Part shown: positions 2,263-12,479 of the stretch, piece after piece
How positions within the stretch are numbered: the stretch's first letter is position 1
Layout: each line of letters begins with the position of its first letter
Notes under the pieces: model-generated
What the model saw: the letters and a program-made list of their open reading frames with translations, nothing else
What the model was told of the DNA's origin: nothing
Database searches by the model: none
Source: Acidobacteriaceae bacterium
Lineage (GTDB): Bacteria; Acidobacteriota; Terriglobia; Terriglobales; SbA1
DNA length: 12,479 nt
Reading direction: 5' to 3'
Assembly: GCA_003156615.1 (NCBI GenBank)
Contig: PMHI01000738.1
Location: 4,103 to 16,581, forward strand
Program-made: the position numbers and the translations under genes

Positions 2263-2967
2263 ATGAATCGTAAAAATCTCATGACGATCGCCTTAGGAGG
2301 CTTCGCGCTGATTGCCGCCCTGGCTGCGGCGTCGCAGGCGCCAGCACAGGATGCCAAAGCGCCGTATCCCAACATGGCCCCGCTTGATCAATACCTTATG
2401 GAGCGAAACACCGAGGTAGCACTGGCGCTGAGCGCTGCCCCGCAGTCCATCTCACAGGATGCGGAAATCATGGTGCTCGGGCAGCACGGTTACGAAACCG
2501 CCGTCAAAGGCAAAAATGGTTTCGTTTGCCTGGTGTGGCGATCATGGATGGCTGGAACCGACGATCCCGATTTTTGGAATCCCAAACTGCGGGCCCCCAT
2601 CTGTCTCAACACGCTGGCTGCGCGATCCCAAATTCCACTTACCCTCAAGAAAACCGAGGTCATATTGGCTTCGCGATCCAAAGACCAGATGGCCGAGGCC
2701 GTCAACGCCGCTTTCGACGGGAAGGGATTGTCGCCGCCGGAAACCGGCGCGATGTGCTACATGATGTCAAAACAAGGATACTTGAATGATCGCGACGGTC
2801 ACTGGCATCCCCACCTGATGTTTTTCCTTCCACTCACAGACCCTGCGATTTGGGGCGCAGGCCCACCAAGCTCCCCCGTTCTAGGATTTAAGTCCACTCT
2901 GGACCGGCTGACCTTGTTTCTGATTCCAATCGGCCAATGGTCGGACGGCACGGCTTATGAACACTGA
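2263..2967 (+). CDS. secreted protein of unknown function
   Basis: This encodes 234 residues. The ATG at 2263 is chosen because GGAG at 2253-2256 is a well-spaced ribosome binding site and because the protein then starts with a textbook signal peptide: MNRK, a hydrophobic core (MTIALGGFALIAALAAA), and an Ala-rich cleavage zone near SQAPAQ (about residues 24-29). An upstream in-frame start at 2215 would bury the signal peptide. The mature part is about 205 residues with no further membrane segment. It contains FVCLVWRSWMAGTDDPDFWNPKLRAPICLN broken across two Cys residues, a third Cys in GAMCYMMSKQGY, and an HWHPHLMFF stretch rich in His and aromatics. I do not recognise a named domain. It is probably exported to the periplasm. 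It lies 82 nt after the VOC gene and may be an independent unit. Confidence 0.8.
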   Translation: MNRKNLMTIALGGFALIAALAAASQAPAQDAKAPYPNMAPLDQYLMERNTEVALALSAAPQSISQDAEIMVLGQHGYETAVKGKNGFVCLVWRSWMAGTDDPDFWNPKLRAPICLNTLAARSQIPLTLKKTEVILASRSKDQMAEAVNAAFDGKGLSPPETGAMCYMMSKQGYLNDRDGHWHPHLMFFLPLTDPAIWGAGPPSSPVLGFKSTLDRLTLFLIPIGQWSDGTAYEH

Positions 2968-3404
2968 CCATCCGGTTGATTGACGATCAAGATGGACATT
3001 CACGATGACAAGCTCGAGAAATTCGAAGCGGAGGGCACCTTTACCGGTCCCAAACGATCCAGGCTCCATCCAGGAAATCAATTCAAAGATCAATGAAGAA
3101 CCGACTCTTCGGCAATGTCAGATTCCTCATTGCGTTGGGATCAAGGGGGTGATCTCAAAGCTGGTCTGGCCGTAAGAGCAAGGTGCAAGAGCCTCCCTCA
3201 CCCCGCTCTCGCTCCTCCAAACGGTGGCAGTTTAGCCGGTTCTGGCTTAAAGTATTGTCTGGCGCCGCTGAAGTCGGCGCTACGAAAACCACCTGCGACA
3301 GACGTAGCTCGCCCAGAAACGGCTGAAGAGTCATCAAGCTTCTCGTCCGACGGTTGGTTCCAAGACTCGAGTAGCCGAATCTAACCAGGCCCGAGGCCAA
3401 TTCT
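2968..3404. other. 437-nt intergenic region with palindromes, no convincing gene
   Basis: No gene with family support was found here. A 34-codon frame (ATG 2992, stop 3094-3096, beginning MDIHDDKLEKFEAEG) has no clear ribosome binding site and no recognised relative. An 89-codon frame at 3115-3384 has the Arg/Ser/Pro-rich composition of a chance frame. A 5-bp TTGAT/ATCAA hairpin sits at 2976-2990. The notable content is two neighbouring palindromes at 3231-3251 and 3262-3280, listed separately. The promoter of the sigma-54 activator at 3405 must lie here, but no clear -35/-10 or -24/-12 pair was identified. Confidence 0.6.
3231..3280. repeat. pair of adjacent palindromes, REP-like intergenic repeat candidate
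   Basis: The first hairpin (3231-3251) pairs TTTAGCC with GGCTTAAA (one bulged A) around GGTTCT. Eleven nucleotides later a second one (3262-3280) pairs GCGCCG with CGGCGC perfectly around CTGAAGT. Read on the other strand the second becomes GCGCCGACTTCAGCGGCGC. Short palindromes of the GGCTAAAGCC and GCGCCGA...CGGCGC type recur between genes in many acidobacterial genomes as I recall them, and that is the basis for calling this a dispersed repeat. Only one copy is present in this window, so repetition itself is not shown. Confidence 0.45.
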
Positions 3405-5552
3405 ATGGAGAGAGCAATCGAGTCCCCCGCAAAAGTCCTATCGCGGGGCGGACGGCCGGTAGACGAGTTGGGGTTGTTTTCGAACGAGTCTGTCCTCAAC
3501 CTTCAAAAACTGATTTTCGCTGGCTCTCCCCTATCCGAAGTTCTGACGAACATCGCTCAGTTGGTTGAATCGCAAGCCGAAGGTATGTCTTGCACGATCT
3601 GGCTTCCGGACGAAGACGGAAAGGAGCTCCGTTGTGCCGCTGCGCCCAATCTTGCCGGATTCAGCGCTCAAGTAGGAACCATGGCGGTTGGTCCGAAAGG
3701 CGGATCTTGCGGCACAGCGGTTTATCGGAAGGAGCCTGTGTATGTAGCCGACGTCTTGACCGACCCCATCTGGGACGATTATCGTGAGCGCCTGTTGCCT
3801 TATGGAATTCGTTCTGTTTGGTCTCGCCCGCTGTTCACAAGCGAAGGCAAAGCCCTCGGTACTTTTTCTATCAATTATCGTGAACCACGCAGCCCCTCTG
3901 CCAATGACCTCCAGCTGATCGAGAATGCCAGCCATATCACTGGGATCGCGATTGAGCGCCACATGAACGAACAAGCGCTGCAGCGTGAGCGCGACAGGCT
4001 GCGCTTGCTTCTGGAAATCACGAGCAGCGTCACCTCCAGGTTGGACCTCCGGCAAATGGTTGAGGCGCTTTCGACGAACCTATTCAGGGTAATGCAGTGT
4101 GACGTGTCCGCCTTGCTCCTACCCGACTCCGAGAGCGGAGCGTTACGGGTCACTATCTTGCACAATCCCGACGCGAGAGGACCCTTGCGCGAGGGATCGT
4201 TGGTGCCGATGAACAGTTCGATCTCAGGTCAGGTATTGCGGAAAGCCAAGAGCATCCGGATCGATAGCTTCGAACAGGTCCGCGAGGATCCTGAAATCTA
4301 TGGGAATCCCGACGGCCGGCTTCTTTATGAGCACGTGATCGAGGAAGGCCTCAGGACGGGGTGTTATCTGCCGCTCACAGGCCGCGAGCGCGTGGTTGGC
4401 GTTTTGATGCTCTCCAGGCGCTCGGACAATCATTTTAAAAAAGATGACATCATTTTACTTGAGCAGGTGGCTTGTCAGGTAGCGATTGCAGTCGAGAACA
4501 CCTTGGAGTACGAGAAGGCAACCAAAGACCGAGATAAAGAGACAAAACAGAGACGCTACCTCGAGGAGGAAATTCGTACCGAGTTAGGAGAAATCGTCGG
4601 AGAGAGCCCGGCGTTGAAAACGGCGTTGAGCCTGGTGTCTGTAGTGGCGCCTACGGATTCCGGCGTGCTGATCCTGGGCGAGACAGGCACTGGCAAAGAG
4701 CTCGTTGCCCGTGCAATACATAAGCTGGGCAATCGCAGCGAAAAGGCATTCGTGAAACTAAACTGCGCTGCAATACCGCTTGGACTTCTCGAGAGTGAGC
4801 TTTTCGGACACGAAAAAGGAGCATTTACCGGCGCCATCGCCCAAAAGACCGGCCGGTTCGAACTCGCCGACAAAGGTACGCTTTTTCTTGACGAGGTCGG
4901 CGATATACCTCTCGAACTTCAGGCGAAACTGCTGCGCGTTCTACAAGAGCAGGAATTTGAGAGGCTCGGCAGCAACCGTACGCATAAGGTCGACGTCCGC
5001 CTGATCGCAGCCACGCATCGGGATTTGCCGGCGATGGTAAAGCAAGGGACGTTTCGCGAGGACCTTTACTATCGTCTGAAAGTCTTTCCGATCCAGGTCC
5101 CGGCCCTGCGACAACGCACAGAGGATATTCCGAGATTGGTGCGGCATTTCATAGCGCTTTACGCTCAACGCATGAACAAACGAATTGACACAATTCCTCC
5201 GGAGACGATGGATGCGTTGCTGCGATACCCATGGCCAGGAAACGTCCGCGAATTACAGAACTTTATTGAACGCGCTGTGATTCTCTCACCACAGTCGACG
5301 CTACACGCGCCAACTTCGGAGCTCGAGCCGTTCCAACCTCACCAGGAGCCGAATGCCCCTATGAATGGTCTCGCGCAGGTAGAGCGGGATCATATCCTAC
5401 GTGCGTTGGGAGCGAGCAACTGGGTGATCAGTGGCGCGGCCGCGCGTTTGGGAATGAAGCGAACGTCATTGGTTTACAGGATGAAGAAGCTGCGTATTCA
5501 TCGGCCTACCCCAGTCCCCGAGAAACGCAGCATCGGCCTAGCCGGCGATTGA
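3405..5552 (+). CDS. sigma-54-dependent transcriptional activator, GAF-GAF-AAA+-Fis (FhlA-like architecture)
   Basis: This encodes 715 residues. The order is GAF (about 41-185), a charged linker helix, a second GAF (about 212-365), a charged coiled-coil-like linker (366-396), an AAA+ sigma-54 interaction domain (about 397-635), and a Fis-type helix-turn-helix (about 667-700). Visible motifs are Walker A GETGTGKE (425-432), the sigma-54-contacting GAFTGA loop (472-477), Walker B LFLDEVGD with D496 and E497, and WPGNVRELQNF starting at W610. The DNA-binding segment reads NWVISGAAARLGMKRTSLVYRMKKLRI. Intact GAFTGA and Walker motifs indicate a working ATP-driven activator of RNA polymerase-sigma-54. 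The GAF domains should sense a small ligand or redox signal. The domain layout matches FhlA-type regulators, but no formate or hydrogenase genes are nearby, so the target is unknown. The start ATG has GAGG at 3393-3396, eight nucleotides upstream. Confidence 0.95.
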   Translation: MERAIESPAKVLSRGGRPVDELGLFSNESVLNLQKLIFAGSPLSEVLTNIAQLVESQAEGMSCTIWLPDEDGKELRCAAAPNLAGFSAQVGTMAVGPKGGSCGTAVYRKEPVYVADVLTDPIWDDYRERLLPYGIRSVWSRPLFTSEGKALGTFSINYREPRSPSANDLQLIENASHITGIAIERHMNEQALQRERDRLRLLLEITSSVTSRLDLRQMVEALSTNLFRVMQCDVSALLLPDSESGALRVTILHNPDARGPLREGSLVPMNSSISGQVLRKAKSIRIDSFEQVREDPEIYGNPDGRLLYEHVIEEGLRTGCYLPLTGRERVVGVLMLSRRSDNHFKKDDIILLEQVACQVAIAVENTLEYEKATKDRDKETKQRRYLEEEIRTELGEIVGESPALKTALSLVSVVAPTDSGVLILGETGTGKELVARAIHKLGNRSEKAFVKLNCAAIPLGLLESELFGHEKGAFTGAIAQKTGRFELADKGTLFLDEVGDIPLELQAKLLRVLQEQEFERLGSNRTHKVDVRLIAATHRDLPAMVKQGTFREDLYYRLKVFPIQVPALRQRTEDIPRLVRHFIALYAQRMNKRIDTIPPETMDALLRYPWPGNVRELQNFIERAVILSPQSTLHAPTSELEPFQPHQEPNAPMNGLAQVERDHILRALGASNWVISGAAARLGMKRTSLVYRMKKLRIHRPTPVPEKRSIGLAGD

Positions 5553-6839: not shown

Positions 6840-7500
6840 GAGTATGAGAGTGGTGTCGGTGAATTGCGGCCTTCCACAAGAAGTGCAATGGCATGGGAGA
6901 ACCGTAACTACCGGGATCTATAAGCAACCAGTTGAAGGTCGGGTTGGGCTTCGCCAATTGAATTTGGAGGGAGACCGGCAAGCTGATCTCAGTGTTCACG
7001 GCGGTAAAGAAAAAGCGGTTTATTGCTATCCGCTGGATCACTATGACTACTGGAGGGCCGAACTGCCTGGCCGCCAATTGCCGATAGGGATGTTTGGAGA
7101 GAACTTTACAACTGATGGATTGTCGGAAAACACAGTGTTCATCGGCGACAAGTTTTCCATCGGCTCCGCCGAAGTCGTCGTAACTCAGCCCCGGCTTCCA
7201 TGCTACAAGCTCGGGATCAGGTTTGAATCCGACGAAATGGTGAAGCGCTTCCTTATTAGTGCCCGCACCGGCTTTTATCTCGCTGTCACGCGCGAGGGTG
7301 CGGTTACCGCAAACGATGAAATTGTGTTCATCGATCGAGAACCAAACTCCGTTCCAGTGTCAGAGATCACCCGGTTGTACGTGGCAAAGAAATACAGCGC
7401 TGGCGACCTCGCTTTAGCGGCACGAACACTTTCAATTGCCGCACTACCAGAGGGTTGGAAGGACTACTTCCGTGAGCAATTACAACGGTTCAAAGCCTAG
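6838..7500 (+). CDS. MOSC domain protein (YiiM-like, with C-terminal 3-alpha domain)
   Basis: This encodes 220 residues; an internal ATG at 6844 (MRVVSVNCG) is an equally plausible start giving 218, and neither has a strong ribosome binding site. The MOSC domain occupies about residues 25-165, with LNLEGDRQADLSVHGGKEKAV broken around the conserved D.QAD..HGG block, FGENFTTDGL (about 86-95), and the conserved Cys122 in QPRLPCYKLG. That Cys is the residue proposed to carry sulfur to the molybdenum cofactor or substrate in MOSC proteins. The last ~50 residues (VSEITRLYVAKK ... LPEGWKDYFREQL) match the 3-alpha domain of YiiM-type members, which in E. coli are linked to N-hydroxylated base analogue detoxification. 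Such a role here is inference. It is followed after 1 nt by the next gene, a likely operon. Divergent to it lie decayed minus-strand genes. Confidence 0.92.
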   Translation: MSMRVVSVNCGLPQEVQWHGRTVTTGIYKQPVEGRVGLRQLNLEGDRQADLSVHGGKEKAVYCYPLDHYDYWRAELPGRQLPIGMFGENFTTDGLSENTVFIGDKFSIGSAEVVVTQPRLPCYKLGIRFESDEMVKRFLISARTGFYLAVTREGAVTANDEIVFIDREPNSVPVSEITRLYVAKKYSAGDLALAARTLSIAALPEGWKDYFREQLQRFKA

Positions 7501-7501
7501 T

Positions 7502-8089
7502 ATGCAGACCCATAACCATGCACTGCGTGCCCAGGGTAAATTTCCACGACAAAGCGTTAAGAGTGCTGCAAATTTGGAGTCAAGAGAGCGATTGCGCCGA
7601 CATTATCGCCCTCAACGGGTACGCATATTGTTCGTGGGCGAAGCCCCTCCCGCCTCGGGCCGGTTTTTCTATCACGCAGACTCGGGACTGTACCGGGCGA
7701 TTCGCGACACATTCGTGGCAGCCATACCGTCGCTGCAATCATCAAAGGATGAGTTTCTGGAATCGTTTCGCGCGATGGGTTGTTACTTGGTGGACCTGTG
7801 CGGAAAACCTGTGGACCGGATGGACTCCCGCTCGCGACGCTGCATCTGCAAGGCTGGCGAAGCGCGTCTGGCCTGTAGGCTTCGACAACTTCGTCCAAAG
7901 ATTGTCATCACCGTTGTGCTATCTATTGGGAGTAACGTACGCCGAGCCGAGGCATGCGCAATGTGGTCCGGGCAGCATATGGAGCTTCCATATCCGGGGC
8001 GATGGTATCGTTTCCGCATTGCCTTTCGCAGGAAATTGACACCTCTGCTCCGGACTGCTCTTACTGGTGACCATCAACGTTCGGATTGA
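7502..8089 (+). CDS. uncharacterised uracil-DNA-glycosylase-like protein
   Basis: This encodes 195 residues from ATG 7502, one nucleotide after the MOSC stop. An in-frame ATG at 7436 would overlap the MOSC gene by 65 nt and add an implausible leader. The core segment RILFVGEAPPASGRFFYHAD resembles the first motif of uracil-DNA-glycosylase-superfamily folds (GEAPG-like), and GLYRAIRDTF, GCYLVDLCGKPVD and LRPKIVITVVLSIG follow in the order seen in a conserved but uncharacterised group. The LPYPGRWYRFR segment near the C-terminus is typical of that group. The N-terminal ~45 residues are basic and low in order. Glycosylase activity is not implied, since the group lacks experimental support that I can name. 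Its close coupling to MOSC suggests co-expression only. Confidence 0.75.
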   Translation: MQTHNHALRAQGKFPRQSVKSAANLESRERLRRHYRPQRVRILFVGEAPPASGRFFYHADSGLYRAIRDTFVAAIPSLQSSKDEFLESFRAMGCYLVDLCGKPVDRMDSRSRRCICKAGEARLACRLRQLRPKIVITVVLSIGSNVRRAEACAMWSGQHMELPYPGRWYRFRIAFRRKLTPLLRTALTGDHQRSD

Positions 8090-8115: not shown

Positions 8116-8553
8116 ATGAAGAAGAGTCTATCTCATCTCGCCCGCCATTACCCCCGTTTACCCACGAAACAGCAGTCGTGAAAGTGCAATTGGCCGAGGA
8201 TGGATGGAATTCACGCGACCCTGAAAAGTTTGCTTTGGCCTACGCGCCGGATTCAGGTTGGCGAAACCGGGCTGAATTCATAAACGGCAGAGCCGAAATC
8301 CTTGCTTTCCTTCCGCGCAAGTGGGCAAAGGAATTGGAACGTGGGCTGATTGAAGAACTTTGGGGGTTTAATTCTGATCGAATTGCTGTCAGGTTTGCGT
8401 ACGAATGGCACGACGATTCTCAAAATTGCTTTAGATCTTATGGCAAGGAGAGTTGGGAATTCAACGAGGACGGCCGGCGGAGCGCAAGTATCACTGGCCC
8501 CCCAGGGCCGGCGTCCGGACGGCCATCCGGGCCTACCTGAGCTGGGTCCTTGA
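8116..8553 (+). pseudogene. DUF1348 (NTF2/SnoaL-like) gene, inactivated
   Basis: Three frames must be joined to recover a DUF1348 protein. Upstream of GTG 8178 the frame already encodes [13 protein letters not shown] (8139-8177), the family's standard N-terminus, yet it has no start codon after TAA 8103. The likely original ATG at 8116 is one frame off, so one base was lost between 8118 and 8139. The main body runs [20 protein letters not shown], then [20 protein letters not shown] and [21 protein letters not shown] to NEDG (8474). Family members continue there with about 14 residues of the type LMxxRxASINDxPI. These are missing and the frame changes to AERKYHWPP (8477-8503). After another missing base the tail [15 protein letters not shown] ends at TGA 8551-8553. 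A GTG-initiated frame 8178-8540 exists but ends in nonsense residues. DUF1348 proteins have an NTF2-like fold and unknown function. Confidence 0.85.
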
Positions 8554-8775
8554 CCCTACTCTGGCAGGATTGTGTGGCAGACAACCGGTAAATCGGAGAT
8601 TGCAAAGCGGCCATCTGGATTGCCGACGATACGGGTAGTCACACCTCTTCGCTTCATGCCCTCACTGTCGACGTCAGTGGCCGTCGTTTGTTAAGCTGTC
8701 GGTTCCTCTAGTTTTCCTAGACACATCTGGGCAGAGGAGATCCGATTTTCTGCCGGCAGTGGCCGGTTGATTCCA
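8554..8775. other. upstream region of the peroxidase-encapsulin cassette
   Basis: This 222-nt stretch contains no recognised gene. It must hold the promoter of the peroxidase-encapsulin genes, but no convincing -35/-10 or -24/-12 pair was found. A dyad CACTG-TCGACGT-CAGTG lies at 8663-8679 and could be an operator. A CCGGC/GCCGG-type inverted repeat at about 8753-8766 lies just ahead of the peroxidase start and might limit ribosome access. A purine-rich GAGGAGA at 8734-8740 looks like a ribosome binding site but is too far (about 36 nt) from the ATG to serve it. All assignments here are tentative. Confidence 0.35.
8663..8679. promoter_or_regulatory. dyad symmetry, possible operator upstream of peroxidase gene
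   Basis: CACTG (8663-8667) and CAGTG (8675-8679) are perfect inverted arms of five bases around TCGACGT, which itself contains GACGTC-like symmetry with its flank. It lies about 97 nt upstream of the peroxidase ATG, a possible position for a regulator site. There is no second copy nearby and no known regulator is implied. Chance occurrence is quite possible. Confidence 0.2.
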
Positions 8776-9852
8776 ATGGCATCCGACCCCATCAGCGCTC
8801 CCGCATTGGCTCCCGAACAGGCTGTTTCGCAGCTCGTTTCCTCTGCACTCACTCGTTCCGCAATTTTTCTCGTCGTTACCATCAACCCCGGTGACGAAAA
8901 TCGCGCCGCGGTGCTGTCTTTTTGCGCCGATCTCTCGGGACTGGTACGCGCCGTCGGATTTCGCGACCTCGAAGGCGCTGTCTCCTGCATCATGGGCGTC
9001 GGTTCCGAGGCCTGGGACCGGCTGTTCGGCTCTCCGAGGCCTGCGGAACTTCATTCGTTCCGTGAATTTCGCTCTGGACGGCGGCACGCCGTCTCCACAC
9101 CGGGCGACTTGATCTTTCACATCCGCGCCAAGCGTATGGATCTTTGTTTCGAACTCGCCACGCAAATCCTGGCGCGCCTGGCAGGCGTGGTCACTACCGT
9201 CGACGAAGTCCAAGCCTTCCGCTACTTCGACCAACGCGATCTCCTCGGCTTCGTTGACGGTACGGAAAACCCTACGGGTGCTGCTGCCACCGATGCCGTC
9301 TTCATTCGCGACGAGGATCCTGCTTTTGCTGGCGGAAGCTACGTCATCGTCCAAAAGTATCTCCACAACCTCGACGCTTGGAACAGCATCTCCACCGAGG
9401 CCCAGGAAAACATTATCGGGCGTACAAAGGTCGCCGACATCGAACTCGACGACTCCGTCAAGCCCACGTGTGCTCACAATGCCCTCACCGTAATCGAAGA
9501 AGGCGGCAGGGAGATCAAAATACTCCGCGACAACATGCCGTTCGGCAGCCCCGGCCAAGGCGAGTTCGGAACGTATTTCATTGGTTACAGCCGCTCGCCT
9601 CGCACCATCGAACAAATGCTCGAGAATATGTTCATCGGCCGCCCGCCTGGCAATTACGATCGCATCTTGGACTTCAGCACCGCGGTCACAGGAAGTCTGT
9701 TCTTCGTGCCGACTGGCACTTTCCTCGACGATGTCTCACCTGATCAACCCCCGACGGTCGCAGCGTCGGTTGAAACCTCCGTCTCCGGCGCGCCATCCAT
9801 GAATGGTTCGCTTGGCATCGGTTCCTTGAAAGGGGAAGATTCCTATGAATAA
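8776..9852 (+). CDS. Dyp-type heme peroxidase, encapsulin cargo
   Basis: This encodes 358 residues from ATG 8776; a TTG at 8767 would add three residues, and neither has a good ribosome binding site. DyP peroxidases oxidise dyes, phenolics or Mn(II) with H2O2. Visible features are the GFVDGTENP motif with the distal catalytic Asp161 (GxxDG), the probable proximal heme ligand His234 in TCAHNALTV, and Arg251 and Asn253 in ILRDNMPFG, with GTYFIGYSRSP following. The D-to-H spacing of 73 equals that of Rhodococcus DypB (D153, H226). No signal peptide is present, consistent with a cytosolic B-type enzyme. A Pro/Ser/Thr/Val-rich linker (about 312-343) leads to the final GSLGIGSLKGEDSYE (344-358), a classic encapsulin cargo-loading peptide. 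The gene overlaps the shell gene by 8 nt, so cargo and shell are made together. Confidence 0.96.
   Translation: MASDPISAPALAPEQAVSQLVSSALTRSAIFLVVTINPGDENRAAVLSFCADLSGLVRAVGFRDLEGAVSCIMGVGSEAWDRLFGSPRPAELHSFREFRSGRRHAVSTPGDLIFHIRAKRMDLCFELATQILARLAGVVTTVDEVQAFRYFDQRDLLGFVDGTENPTGAAATDAVFIRDEDPAFAGGSYVIVQKYLHNLDAWNSISTEAQENIIGRTKVADIELDDSVKPTCAHNALTVIEEGGREIKILRDNMPFGSPGQGEFGTYFIGYSRSPRTIEQMLENMFIGRPPGNYDRILDFSTAVTGSLFFVPTGTFLDDVSPDQPPTVAASVETSVSGAPSMNGSLGIGSLKGEDSYE
9808..9852 (+). other. encapsulin cargo-loading peptide coding segment
   Basis: These last codons of the peroxidase encode GSLGIGSLKGEDSYE plus the stop, matching the short LGIGSLKG-type targeting peptide known at the C-terminus of family 1 encapsulin cargo such as the Brevibacterium linens and Rhodococcus DyP enzymes. 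In those systems the peptide docks on the inner face of the shell next to the N-terminal helix of the shell protein. The adjacent encapsulin gene makes the assignment strong. Confidence 0.93.
9829..9837 (+). promoter_or_regulatory. encapsulin ribosome binding site embedded in cargo-peptide codons
   Basis: AAAGGGGAA sits nine nucleotides (counted from the last G) before the encapsulin ATG at 9845. It is formed by the codons for Lys-Gly-Glu of the LKGE part of the cargo-loading peptide. Together with the 8-nt overlap (ATGAATAA shared by both genes) this suggests translational coupling of shell to cargo. Function as a ribosome binding site is inferred from position and purine content. Confidence 0.65.
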
Positions 9853-10654
9853 CCTGCACCGCGAGCTGGCTCCGATTTCCGATGTCGCGTGGGCTCAAAT
9901 CGAGGAAGAAGCTTCGCGCACCATCAAGCGCTATCTTGCCGGCCGTCGCGTTGTGGACCTACAGGGTCCGGCGGGCGTCGCTCTGTCGGCTGTGGGCACC
10001 GGCCACCTGAGCCCGATCACCGCGCCCGGCGATGGGGTCACTGCCCGACAGCGCGAAGTGAAAGCCCTAGTCGAGCTGCGCGTTCCCTTCGAGCTCGACC
10101 GCCAGATGATTGACGACGTGGAACGCGGTGCTAACGATTCTGACTGGCAGCCGGCAAAAGACGCGGCGCGTGCCCTCGCCTTCGCCGAGGACCGTGCCAT
10201 TTTCGAAGGTTACCGGGCAGCGGGAATTGTCGGCGTGCGTCAGGGCTCCAGCAATCCGAAGAAATCTCTTCCCGCCGACGTGCGCAAATACCCGGAAGCC
10301 TTTGCCCAAGCCTTAAGCCAACTGCGTCTTGTCGGTGTGAACGGCCCTTATTCGATTCTGCTCAGCGCCGATGCTTATACCGAACTCGCCGAAACCAGCG
10401 ATTACGGCTATCCGGTCCTCGAGCACGTCAAACGCCTGGTCGAAGGAAAAATTATCTGGGCACCCGCAATTAACGGGGCTTTCGTCGTCACCACTCGCGG
10501 TGGTGACCTCGATCTTCATATCGGCCAGGATGCTTCCATCGGCTACCTGAGTCACACCGATAGGCAGGTTCGCCTTTACTTGCAGGAGACTTTCACGTTC
10601 CTTTACCTCACATCCGAATCTGCCGTCGCCTTCGCTGCGCCGTCAAAACGCTAG
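9845..10654 (+). CDS. family 1 encapsulin shell protein (linocin M18 / HK97-fold)
   Basis: This encodes 269 residues, close to the 265 or so of well-studied T=1 family 1 encapsulins. Such proteins have the HK97 phage capsid fold and self-assemble into ~60-subunit icosahedral shells that enclose enzymes bearing a cargo-loading peptide. Landmarks are the N-terminal LHRELAPISDVAWAQIEEEA and TIKRYLAGRRVVDLQGP (the helix region that binds cargo peptides on the lumen side), a VELRVPFELDRQMIDDVERG E-loop and spine segment, DAARALAFAEDRAIFEGY, YSILLSADAYTELAET, and the C-terminal RLYLQETFTFLYLTSESAVAF strand. The start overlaps the end of the peroxidase gene and uses a ribosome binding site inside it. 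An oxidoreductase gene begins 4 nt after the stop. The assignment is firm; shell size (T number) is inferred from length. Confidence 0.96.
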   Translation: MNNLHRELAPISDVAWAQIEEEASRTIKRYLAGRRVVDLQGPAGVALSAVGTGHLSPITAPGDGVTARQREVKALVELRVPFELDRQMIDDVERGANDSDWQPAKDAARALAFAEDRAIFEGYRAAGIVGVRQGSSNPKKSLPADVRKYPEAFAQALSQLRLVGVNGPYSILLSADAYTELAETSDYGYPVLEHVKRLVEGKIIWAPAINGAFVVTTRGGDLDLHIGQDASIGYLSHTDRQVRLYLQETFTFLYLTSESAVAFAAPSKR

Positions 10655-10658
10655 AACC

Positions 10659-11681
10659 ATGAAAGCAATCGCATTCACGCGTCCGTTACCGATCGAGGCT
10701 GAGGACTCGCTGGTCGAGCTCGACCTGCCGCAGCCGGAATTCGGGCCGCGGGATTTGCTGGTCAATGTGCGAGCGGTTTCGGTCAATCCGGTGGATACGA
10801 AGGTGCGGAGCGCGCGGCACCAGGGCTCGGCGTCGGACAACACAAGCCAACCGCGGGTGCTTGGCTGGGATGCTGCGGGCGTGGTAGTGGGCAAAGGCGC
10901 CACAGTCACCGGATTCAACGTAGGTGATGAGGTTTACTACGCCGGCGCGTTGGATCGCCCCGGATCGAACGCCGAATACCAGGCCGTGGACGAACGGCTC
11001 GTGGGACGCAAACCAAAATCGATTGGCTTTGCCGAGGCCGCCGCGCTGCCCCTGACGAGCATTACCGCCTGGGAACTGCTGTTCGACCGGCTTGGCGTTC
11101 GTGAAGGCGAGAGCGGCGCGTCTCTGCTGGTCAGCGGAGCCGCCGGCGGCGTGGGCTCCATTCTCGTGCAACTCGCGCGCCGGCTCACGGGACTGACCGT
11201 CGTCGCGACGGCATCGCGGACGGAAACAGTGCAATGGGTCTCACAGATGGGGGCACACTACGTGATCGATCACACCCAGCCGCTGGCCGGGCAGGTGAAT
11301 GGACTGGGCGTGCCTCCGGTGAAGTACATTGCCAGCCTCACGGCCACCGCGCGGAACTTTGCGCCATTGGTCGAGGTCCTGGCTCCGCAGGGAAAGGTCG
11401 GCCTGATTGACGACCCGGCGACGCTCGATGTGGTGCCGCTCAAGCGCAAGTCGGCATCGCTCCATTGGGAATTCATGTTTGCGCGATCGATGTGGCAAAC
11501 CTCCGACATGGCCGAGCAGGGACGCCTGCTGAGTCGCGTCTCGGAGCTTGTCGATCGCGGTGAACTCCGCTCGACGCAAACGCGGACCTTCAGCCTCATC
11601 AATGTCGAGAATCTGAAGAAGGCCCATGCGCTCGCTGAGAGCGGAAAAGCAATCGGCAAAGTGACGTTGAGCGGATTCTGA
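10659..11681 (+). CDS. MDR-superfamily NAD(P)H oxidoreductase (quinone-oxidoreductase-like, zinc-free)
   Basis: This encodes 340 residues, the usual length for 'zinc-binding alcohol dehydrogenase family' proteins of the TIGR02817 type. The N-terminal GroES-like domain (1-125) includes VRAVSVNPVDTKVR and VLGWDAAGVVVGKG. The Rossmann domain (about 130-280) has the dinucleotide-binding glycine motif SGAAGGVGS (159-167) and SQMGAHYVIDH. The catalytic and structural zinc ligands of true alcohol dehydrogenases are absent (NPVD in place of the Cys motif, no CxxC cluster), so a quinone or enone reductase is more likely than an alcohol dehydrogenase. ATG lies 4 nt after the encapsulin stop with no strong ribosome binding site, suggesting translational coupling. 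Its C-terminus (KVTLSGF) carries no cargo-loading peptide, so it is probably outside the shell. It is immediately followed by a gnd remnant. Confidence 0.92.
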   Translation: MKAIAFTRPLPIEAEDSLVELDLPQPEFGPRDLLVNVRAVSVNPVDTKVRSARHQGSASDNTSQPRVLGWDAAGVVVGKGATVTGFNVGDEVYYAGALDRPGSNAEYQAVDERLVGRKPKSIGFAEAAALPLTSITAWELLFDRLGVREGESGASLLVSGAAGGVGSILVQLARRLTGLTVVATASRTETVQWVSQMGAHYVIDHTQPLAGQVNGLGVPPVKYIASLTATARNFAPLVEVLAPQGKVGLIDDPATLDVVPLKRKSASLHWEFMFARSMWQTSDMAEQGRLLSRVSELVDRGELRSTQTRTFSLINVENLKKAHALAESGKAIGKVTLSGF

Positions 11682-11874: not shown

Positions 11875-12479
11875 ATGACAAATGACCACTCGGACGCGCT
11901 GGTGTTCTTTGGTGCCACAGGCGACCTAGCTTACAAAAAGATCTTCCCGGCACTGCAAGCCATGGAGAAACGCGGGCATCTTAACGTACCGGTTGTGGGC
12001 GTGGCCAAAGCGGGATGGAATCTTGATCAGCTTCGGGCCAGAGCCCACGATAGTTTAGAGAAGCACGGCGGAGTTGATCCGGAAGCCTTTGAGAAGTTAG
12101 CCGGCCTGTTGCGATACGTCGACGGAGACTATCAGGATCCGGCAACCTTTGCGGCGCTTCGGAAAGAGCTCAAGGGTGCGCATCATCCGGCGCACTACCT
12201 GGCGATCCCGCCGGCTTTGTTTGAAACCGTTGTGGAGCAACTGGCGCAGTCGAATTGTGCCCAAGGAGGGCGGGTCATCGTCGAAAAACCCTTTGGACAT
12301 GATCTAGCCTCGGCGCGGGAGCTCAACCGGGTTTTGCTCGCAGTTTTCGACGAAACAGACATCTTCCGCATCGATCACTATCTCGGCAAACGGCCAGTAA
12401 ACAATATGCTGGTCTTCCGCTTTGCCAACGCTTTTGTGGAGGCTTTCTGGAATCGGGATTACATCGAGAGCGTGCAGAT
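11875..12479 (+). CDS. zwf: glucose-6-phosphate dehydrogenase (3' end outside window)
   Basis: The first 201 codons are present. The enzyme oxidises glucose-6-phosphate to 6-phosphogluconolactone with NADP+, opening the oxidative pentose phosphate pathway in the cytosol. The start ATG 11875 has GAGG at 11864-11867, seven nucleotides upstream. The coenzyme-binding FFGATGDLAYKKIFPAL (10-26) is the family's GAxGDLAxxK motif. HYLAIPPALF, VIVEKPFGHDLASARELN and the substrate-binding and catalytic IDHYLGK (166-172, with His168) follow in the normal order and spacing. No lesion is seen in the visible part. Its normal operon partner gnd survives only as a 3' stub 9 nt upstream, so zwf may now depend on transcription from the encapsulin cassette. 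Confidence 0.95.
   Translation, partial: MTNDHSDALVFFGATGDLAYKKIFPALQAMEKRGHLNVPVVGVAKAGWNLDQLRARAHDSLEKHGGVDPEAFEKLAGLLRYVDGDYQDPATFAALRKELKGAHHPAHYLAIPPALFETVVEQLAQSNCAQGGRVIVEKPFGHDLASARELNRVLLAVFDETDIFRIDHYLGKRPVNNMLVFRFANAFVEAFWNRDYIESVQ

Follow-up and report, generated by a model that had tools for sequence, protein, structure and literature searches.

A two-gene DyP encapsulin operon of the Acidobacteriota in which the codons of the cargo-loading tag appear to double as ribosome-binding site of the shell gene

Do two overlapping genes in a 12,479-nucleotide stretch of DNA from an Acidobacteriaceae bacterium (the window, by which we mean the whole stretch that was analysed) specify a peroxidase-loaded nanocompartment, as a preliminary description proposed, and does their arrangement hold anything beyond what is known of such systems? 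The shell, cargo and tag patterns support the identification as a classical Family 1 DyP encapsulin. In full, the reading in which we have great confidence is that of an acidobacterial (Terriglobia-type) two-gene operon for a peroxidase shell loaded by means of a tag, the end codons of which would serve as ribosome-binding site of the shell gene.

The upstream gene (8776..9852, forward strand) is an open frame for a DyP-type heme peroxidase, the putative cargo, of 358 aa when read from the ATG at 8776. The start codon is unsettled, as there is also an in-frame TTG at 8767; the nearest purine-rich stretch, AGAGGAG, lies about 35 nt upstream of the ATG, and a scan of the forward strand upstream of the gene found no sigma-70 promoter. 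The protein matches the Pfam profiles Dyp_perox_N (88.1 bits) and Dyp_perox_C (201.2 bits) far beyond chance, and the NCBIfam model Dyp_perox_fam with 275.5 bits (cut-off 100.5). The catalytic Asp, the proximal His, the distal Arg and the Asn are present as D161, H234, R251 and N253, exactly at the positions described before, and the protein ends, as had also been claimed, in a short C-terminal targeting peptide, GSLGIGSLKGEDSYE. Its best solved relatives are encapsulin-associated cargo DyPs, i.e. 8u4z (464 bits), 9e5e and DypB (383 bits), and by its likeness to DypB and the solved cargo DyPs the enzyme can be assigned to the B type. The core of the cargo-loading tag, GSLGIGSLK (residues 344-352), is encoded by 9805..9831 on the forward strand and is followed by the tail GEDSYE. 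The core is identical to the published consensus GSLxIGSLK (PMC10960027), so that the earlier equation of this peptide with the known Family 1 packing tag was right.

The downstream gene (9845..10654, forward strand) encodes the Family 1 encapsulin shell protein, of 269 aa. The direct overlap of the two genes noticed earlier amounts to the 8 nt ATGAATAA (9845..9852, forward strand), in which the DyP gene ends and the shell gene starts. The shell protein matches Linocin_M18 (322.5 bits) far beyond chance in Pfam, and encap_f1 with 347.8 bits (cut-off 100) in NCBIfam. Its solved relatives are encapsulin shells, among them 9i8d (383 bits), the mycobacterial Cfp29 and Klebsiella 8u50, and all five alignments shown are free of gaps over residues 1-264; by its sequence the protein can be placed in the Linocin_M18/encap_f1 family, the fold of which is of the HK97 type. 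Together with the DyP matches, this upholds the proposed pairing of a Family 1 encapsulin with a DyP cargo. It has been reported that R34, D38 and D229 form the pocket that holds the tag in Klebsiella (PMC10960027). All three are present in the shell of the window, where position 230 is Ala versus Ile in Klebsiella, and R34 and D38 are kept in 105 of 108 distinct shells.

Assembly, loading, heme binding, activity and a role in peroxide and acid stress we infer by analogy. The peroxidase would be made first and form a heme-bearing oligomer, after which its C-terminal tag would dock in the pocket that the shell protein has on its inner face; T=1 shells (~24 nm) would thereby self-assemble around the enzyme. 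In relatives, one to three hexamers of heme-bearing DyP are found per T=1 shell (PMC10960027). Once encapsulated, the DyP would use an organic electron donor to reduce peroxide, and low pH would plausibly suit it best. One DyP encapsulin from enterobacteria has its highest activity at low pH, its natural co-substrate not being known (PMC12140327), and Mycobacterium tuberculosis becomes highly sensitive to peroxide at pH 4.5 when mutants lose the operon (PMC8635971). The role in the present organism is most likely the handling of peroxide under acid conditions, and the low-pH optimum of the relatives would suit organisms of acid soil and peat. The source organism is predicted to make loaded shells.

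The peroxidase gene lies directly upstream of the shell gene in 77 of the 80 nearest loci, and the remaining three are contigs that start at most 170 bases before the shell gene. This adjacency, together with the exact tag consensus, the R34/D38/D229 pocket and the conserved overlap, makes it very improbable that the genes are intact and the system nevertheless idle, with the DyP free in the cytosol or the shell filled with another cargo, even though free DyPs are active (PMC10960027) and relatives that lack a tag or an adjoining shell occur in the plasmid loci L139 and L140. A larger unit has hardly better prospects. A zinc-binding dehydrogenase gene (10659-11681, forward strand) begins 4 nt past the shell stop and is followed on the same strand by a partial G6PD gene (11875-12477) that is cut by the window end; common strand and close spacing would fit an operon in which both supply reducing power to the peroxidase, and 67 Streptomyces DyP operons have been reported to carry accessory genes resembling 6-phosphogluconate dehydrogenase (PMC8346489). 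Yet a search of the 80 related loci, 71 of which extend at least 1300 nt past the shell gene, gave no match to either gene at E <= 1e-8. Both were therefore rejected as accessory genes, and the unit consists of two genes, DyP and shell.

Several other genes in the window deserve mention. The affiliation of the two downstream genes is less clear than that of the operon: for the partial G6PD, a protein from Bradyrhizobium (75% identity) is nearer than the closer one of the two matches from Acidicapsa (58%), a possible case of transfer, and the dehydrogenase is about equally near to Bradyrhizobium and Acidiferrales proteins (54% each). Upstream of the operon, the open reading frame at 7436-8089 has a weak match to the uracil-DNA glycosylase superfamily (23.9 bits, below the cut-off of 24.3) and a long competing frame at 7518-8039, and may be a decayed or divergent gene. 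The frame at 8178-8540 encodes a DUF1348 protein (152.9 bits), the match of which stops at profile position 111 of 130; the tail beyond that point looks unrelated, so that the end may have been altered; DUF1348 genes are found near DyP in two of the 80 loci (L021 and L051).

The acidobacterial context that the preliminary description considered probable is confirmed by two observations. In a quick tree built from the shells of 102 operons, the kind of phylogeny that it had proposed as a check, the shell of the window falls in a clade of 10 rows, nine of which are labelled Acidobacteriota (SH-aLRT 100), and the sigma-54 regulator encoded at 3405-5552 is, in two pieces, 91% and 89% identical to that of an acidobacterial metagenome-assembled genome (MAG). 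The nearest shells in the genome collection, 86-90% identical, belong to MAGs that carry the names Candidatus Sulfotelmatobacter and Acidiferrales. The tree comprises 102 distinct operons, labelled Acidobacteriota in 57 cases, Pseudomonadota in 19 and Bacillota in 1, with 25 unlabelled; these shares do not constitute a survey, since the set was gathered from relatives of the window shell. Among 396 genomes sampled from the phylum of Acidicapsa, 25 have a Family 1 shell over the cut-off and 10 have a DyP gene directly upstream of it (L089-L097 and G160, in which the shell gene is split); among 398 genomes of Pseudomonadota, seven have a shell over the cut-off. On this quick tree, which has no outgroup and relies on MAG labels, the distinction between Acidobacteriota and Pseudomonadota requires four changes, two of which are forced by well-supported branches.

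According to a 2021 census, 962 of 1505 DyP systems belong to Actinobacteria, 519 to Proteobacteria and 24 to other groups (PMC8346489), so that the earlier statement that such systems are described mostly in the first two groups agrees with 1481 of the 1505. The main text of the census contains no word starting with acidobacteri (PMC8346489). Acidobacteria bacterium 21-70-11 is named as carrier of an encapsulin in a paper of 2019 (PMC6934571), and encapsulins of this phylum are thus already in print; the literature searched yielded no statement on their abundance in Acidobacteriota. The presence of the system in an acidobacterium, put forward as worth recording, is real; it is not an oddity, as many relatives within the phylum have it. 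Rarity in Acidobacteriota was indeed rejected on the 57 of 102 compared operons and the 10 of 396 phylum genomes.

Three loci encountered on the way depart from the usual layout. The phylum scan returned L112, with a partial shell and a short DyP match nearby. Genome G144, which has a normal operon (L090), carries a second shell gene (L115, 2289-1498), and the DyP match nearest to that gene (2895-3773, 47%) points the opposite way and, ending at residue 310, does not reach the tag region. On a plasmid of Paraburkholderia caribensis (L134, ~2530-2560) a DyP gene with full tag and Shine-Dalgarno is followed by a shell frame that stops after about eight codons.

A further feature lies at the junction of the two genes. 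The predicted Shine-Dalgarno contact of the shell gene of the window (9829..9836, forward strand; bases -16 to -9; -7.8 kcal/mol of predicted rRNA pairing) lies in the Lys-Gly-Glu codons AAA GGG GAA at the tag end. In all loci read, the typical junction is of this form, the shell Shine-Dalgarno being made up of the tag-end codons AAA GGA GA(N), which specify Lys-Gly-Glu/Asp. More specifically, 153 sequences (152 loci and the window) gave 113 DyP/shell pairs, or 108 distinct operons after identical shells were dropped. In 104 of these 108, the predicted contact with the 16S rRNA 3' end overlaps the stretch formed by the codon of the last basic tag residue (in Streptomyces, of its counterpart) and the next two codons; in 103 it lies entirely within the DyP gene. 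A strict tag pattern, which excludes two Streptomyces rows, leaves 106 operons, in 102 of which the tag Lys/Arg codon starts 13-17 nt upstream of the shell start; the two genes overlap by 8 nt in 84 of the 106 and by 4 nt in 13. The basic residue of the tag is followed by Gly in 88 of the 106, and this Gly is spelled GGA (85) or GGG (3) in every case, the window having the rarer GGG. For comparison, these two codons make up 1453 of 4952 Gly codons elsewhere in DyP and shell (102 operons), 40 of 100 within the tag (same set of 102) and 81 of 377 after Lys/Arg elsewhere.

Could the preference for GGA after the tag lysine stem from shared ancestry or a local codon bias instead of ribosome binding? 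The 86 rows with a Gly after the tag that entered the tree test are related, and the tests per operon are weak. When the codons were shuffled synonymously in the 98 operons with the tag 11-20 nt upstream of the start, the mean contact was -8.1 kcal/mol for the real sequences versus -5.9 kcal/mol, and in 91 of 98 the real contact exceeded the shuffle mean in strength; it was weaker in L117, L119, L120, L126, L127, L128 and L135, which have other registers. The value per operon was <=0.05 in 6 and <=0.2 in 62 of the 98 (0.23 for the window), which is only mildly supportive and is to be expected, because the residues Lys-Gly-Glu by themselves demand purines. Stronger evidence on the tag-end codons comes from the tree test. 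With the same tree and rows, the third base of the post-tag Gly changed 3 times, whereas 27 columns of conserved Gly in DyP and shell showed 15-37 changes (median 23) and the Gly inside the tag, three codons upstream, 17. The third base of the tag Lys changed 7 times, against 6-26 in five conserved Lys columns, a range within which the Lys alone is not exceptional. Moreover, the post-tag Gly occurs in none of the four operons in which the contact lies elsewhere versus 88 of 102 (Fisher 6e-4, uncorrected for kinship, two of the four being sisters). Synonymous constraint at the tag end thus exceeds that of other codons, and ancestry or bias as its source has become very unlikely.

The four operons just mentioned (L035, L076, L096 and L136) have longer DyP tails, with the contact near the shell start and away from the tag. 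Purine-rich tag ends of other composition also occur, namely Lys-Glu-Glu, Lys-Asp-Glu, Lys-Lys-Glu (the E. coli plasmid), Arg-Lys-Gly and a stop directly after Lys-Lys; a Streptomyces plasmid operon has Asn-Arg as tag end, and in Streptomyces L148 the predicted contact is all but absent (-0.7 kcal/mol). The arrangement is not a rule for all Family 1 tags, which was ruled out by at least five loci of presumed ferritin type (L101, L102, L103, L106 and L107), where the tag ends 14-29 nt upstream of the shell start and the Shine-Dalgarno lies past the stop of the tag gene. This comparison covered the forward strand, and its rows for L099, L100, L104, L105, L108, L109, L110 and L115, which lie on the other strand, were not used. 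In L098, L099 and L100 the tag ends of the upstream non-DyP genes (MKGR, LRKGGKR and MKGK; those of L099 and L100 read by eye from the junction strings) also contain the shell Shine-Dalgarno, and we presume that these genes belong to the ferritin-like cargo type.

Based on this sequence constraint, the tag-end codons may act as the ribosome-binding site of the shell gene, in which case ribosomes that finish the tag would be well placed to start the shell, and translation of the shell would be coupled to the tag codons. Where genes overlap, it is common for the Shine-Dalgarno to lie within the first of them; what is new here is that it keeps a fixed register with a functional packing tag. It has been suggested in a review that tightly packed cargo-shell operons point to strong translational coupling (PMC8229669), and in a study of tags the cargo and shell genes were kept apart to avoid such coupling effects (PMC7925596). 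The encapsulin literature searched, consisting of open-licence papers, yielded no mention of tag codons as ribosome-binding site of the shell. In Klebsiella the tag residue Lys346 is essential and the next residue, Lys347, has little effect (PMC10960027); the residue after the tag Lys is thus not known as one that is needed for packing.

A wider reading, which taken as a whole we consider tentative and somewhat short of an even chance, would be that the ribosome-binding site of the shell writes the end of the tag. Selection on the RNA would then determine which residues follow the tag lysine (Lys-Gly-Glu, with Lys-Glu-Glu, Lys-Lys-Glu and Asn-Arg in other registers) and lock the tag 13-17 nt before the shell start; the cargo would thus always be made just before the shell on one message, the two genes would move between phyla as a cassette that cannot be split, and the C-terminal tags of encapsulin systems may owe their origin to the reading of a cargo gene through the ribosome-binding site of its neighbour. 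If the tag indeed is the ribosome-binding site of the shell, part of its conservation would be imposed by the RNA and not needed for packing, and the dual role would matter for the reading of tag logos, the recoding of these operons and the design of minimal tags. This apparent double function seems the sole feature of the locus that merits the attention of specialists. For the rest, the operon places a standard oxidative nanocompartment firmly in the Acidobacteriota, within the group outside Actinobacteria and Proteobacteria to which the census assigned 24 of its DyP systems (PMC8346489).

With respect to known systems, the DyP encapsulins of Klebsiella pneumoniae and other enterobacteria (8u4z/8u50, 9e5e) resemble that of the window in having DyP 5' of the shell, the GSLxIGSLK tag and the R34/D38/D229 pocket, and their shells match that of the window without gaps over residues 1-263. 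According to the papers, a formate dehydrogenase lies upstream in the enterobacterial systems; neither formate dehydrogenase nor rpoH is found in the window. The E. coli plasmid form differs in its tag end SLKKEV, a 1-nt gap instead of an overlap and an adjoining rpoH gene. The closest named solved shells are those of the actinobacterial Cfp29-DyP systems of M. smegmatis and M. tuberculosis (361-367 bits), for the latter of which a role in peroxide and acid stress has been shown (PMC8635971), and the DypB of Rhodococcus (383 bits, see above) is a close solved relative of the cargo. The Actinomycetota are represented among the operons compared by five from plasmids; the plasmid forms of Rhodococcus and Streptomyces differ from the window in an overlap of 4 nt and in the tag, which has IGGLKG, IGSLQE or IGDLNR. 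The Family 1 encapsulins of Acidobacteriota with a cargo that we take, from its tail, to be ferritin-like have the shell family and a C-terminal tag on the upstream gene in common with the window, but differ in the cargo and in a tag end that is often clear of the Shine-Dalgarno. Finally, Bradyrhizobium and other Alphaproteobacteria, although of another phylum, have DyP encapsulins with shells 75-80% identical to that of the window and with tag and overlap of the same types; on the shell tree their rows are mixed in with acidobacterial ones. The operon is of a known kind, and its host phylum is a modest extension.
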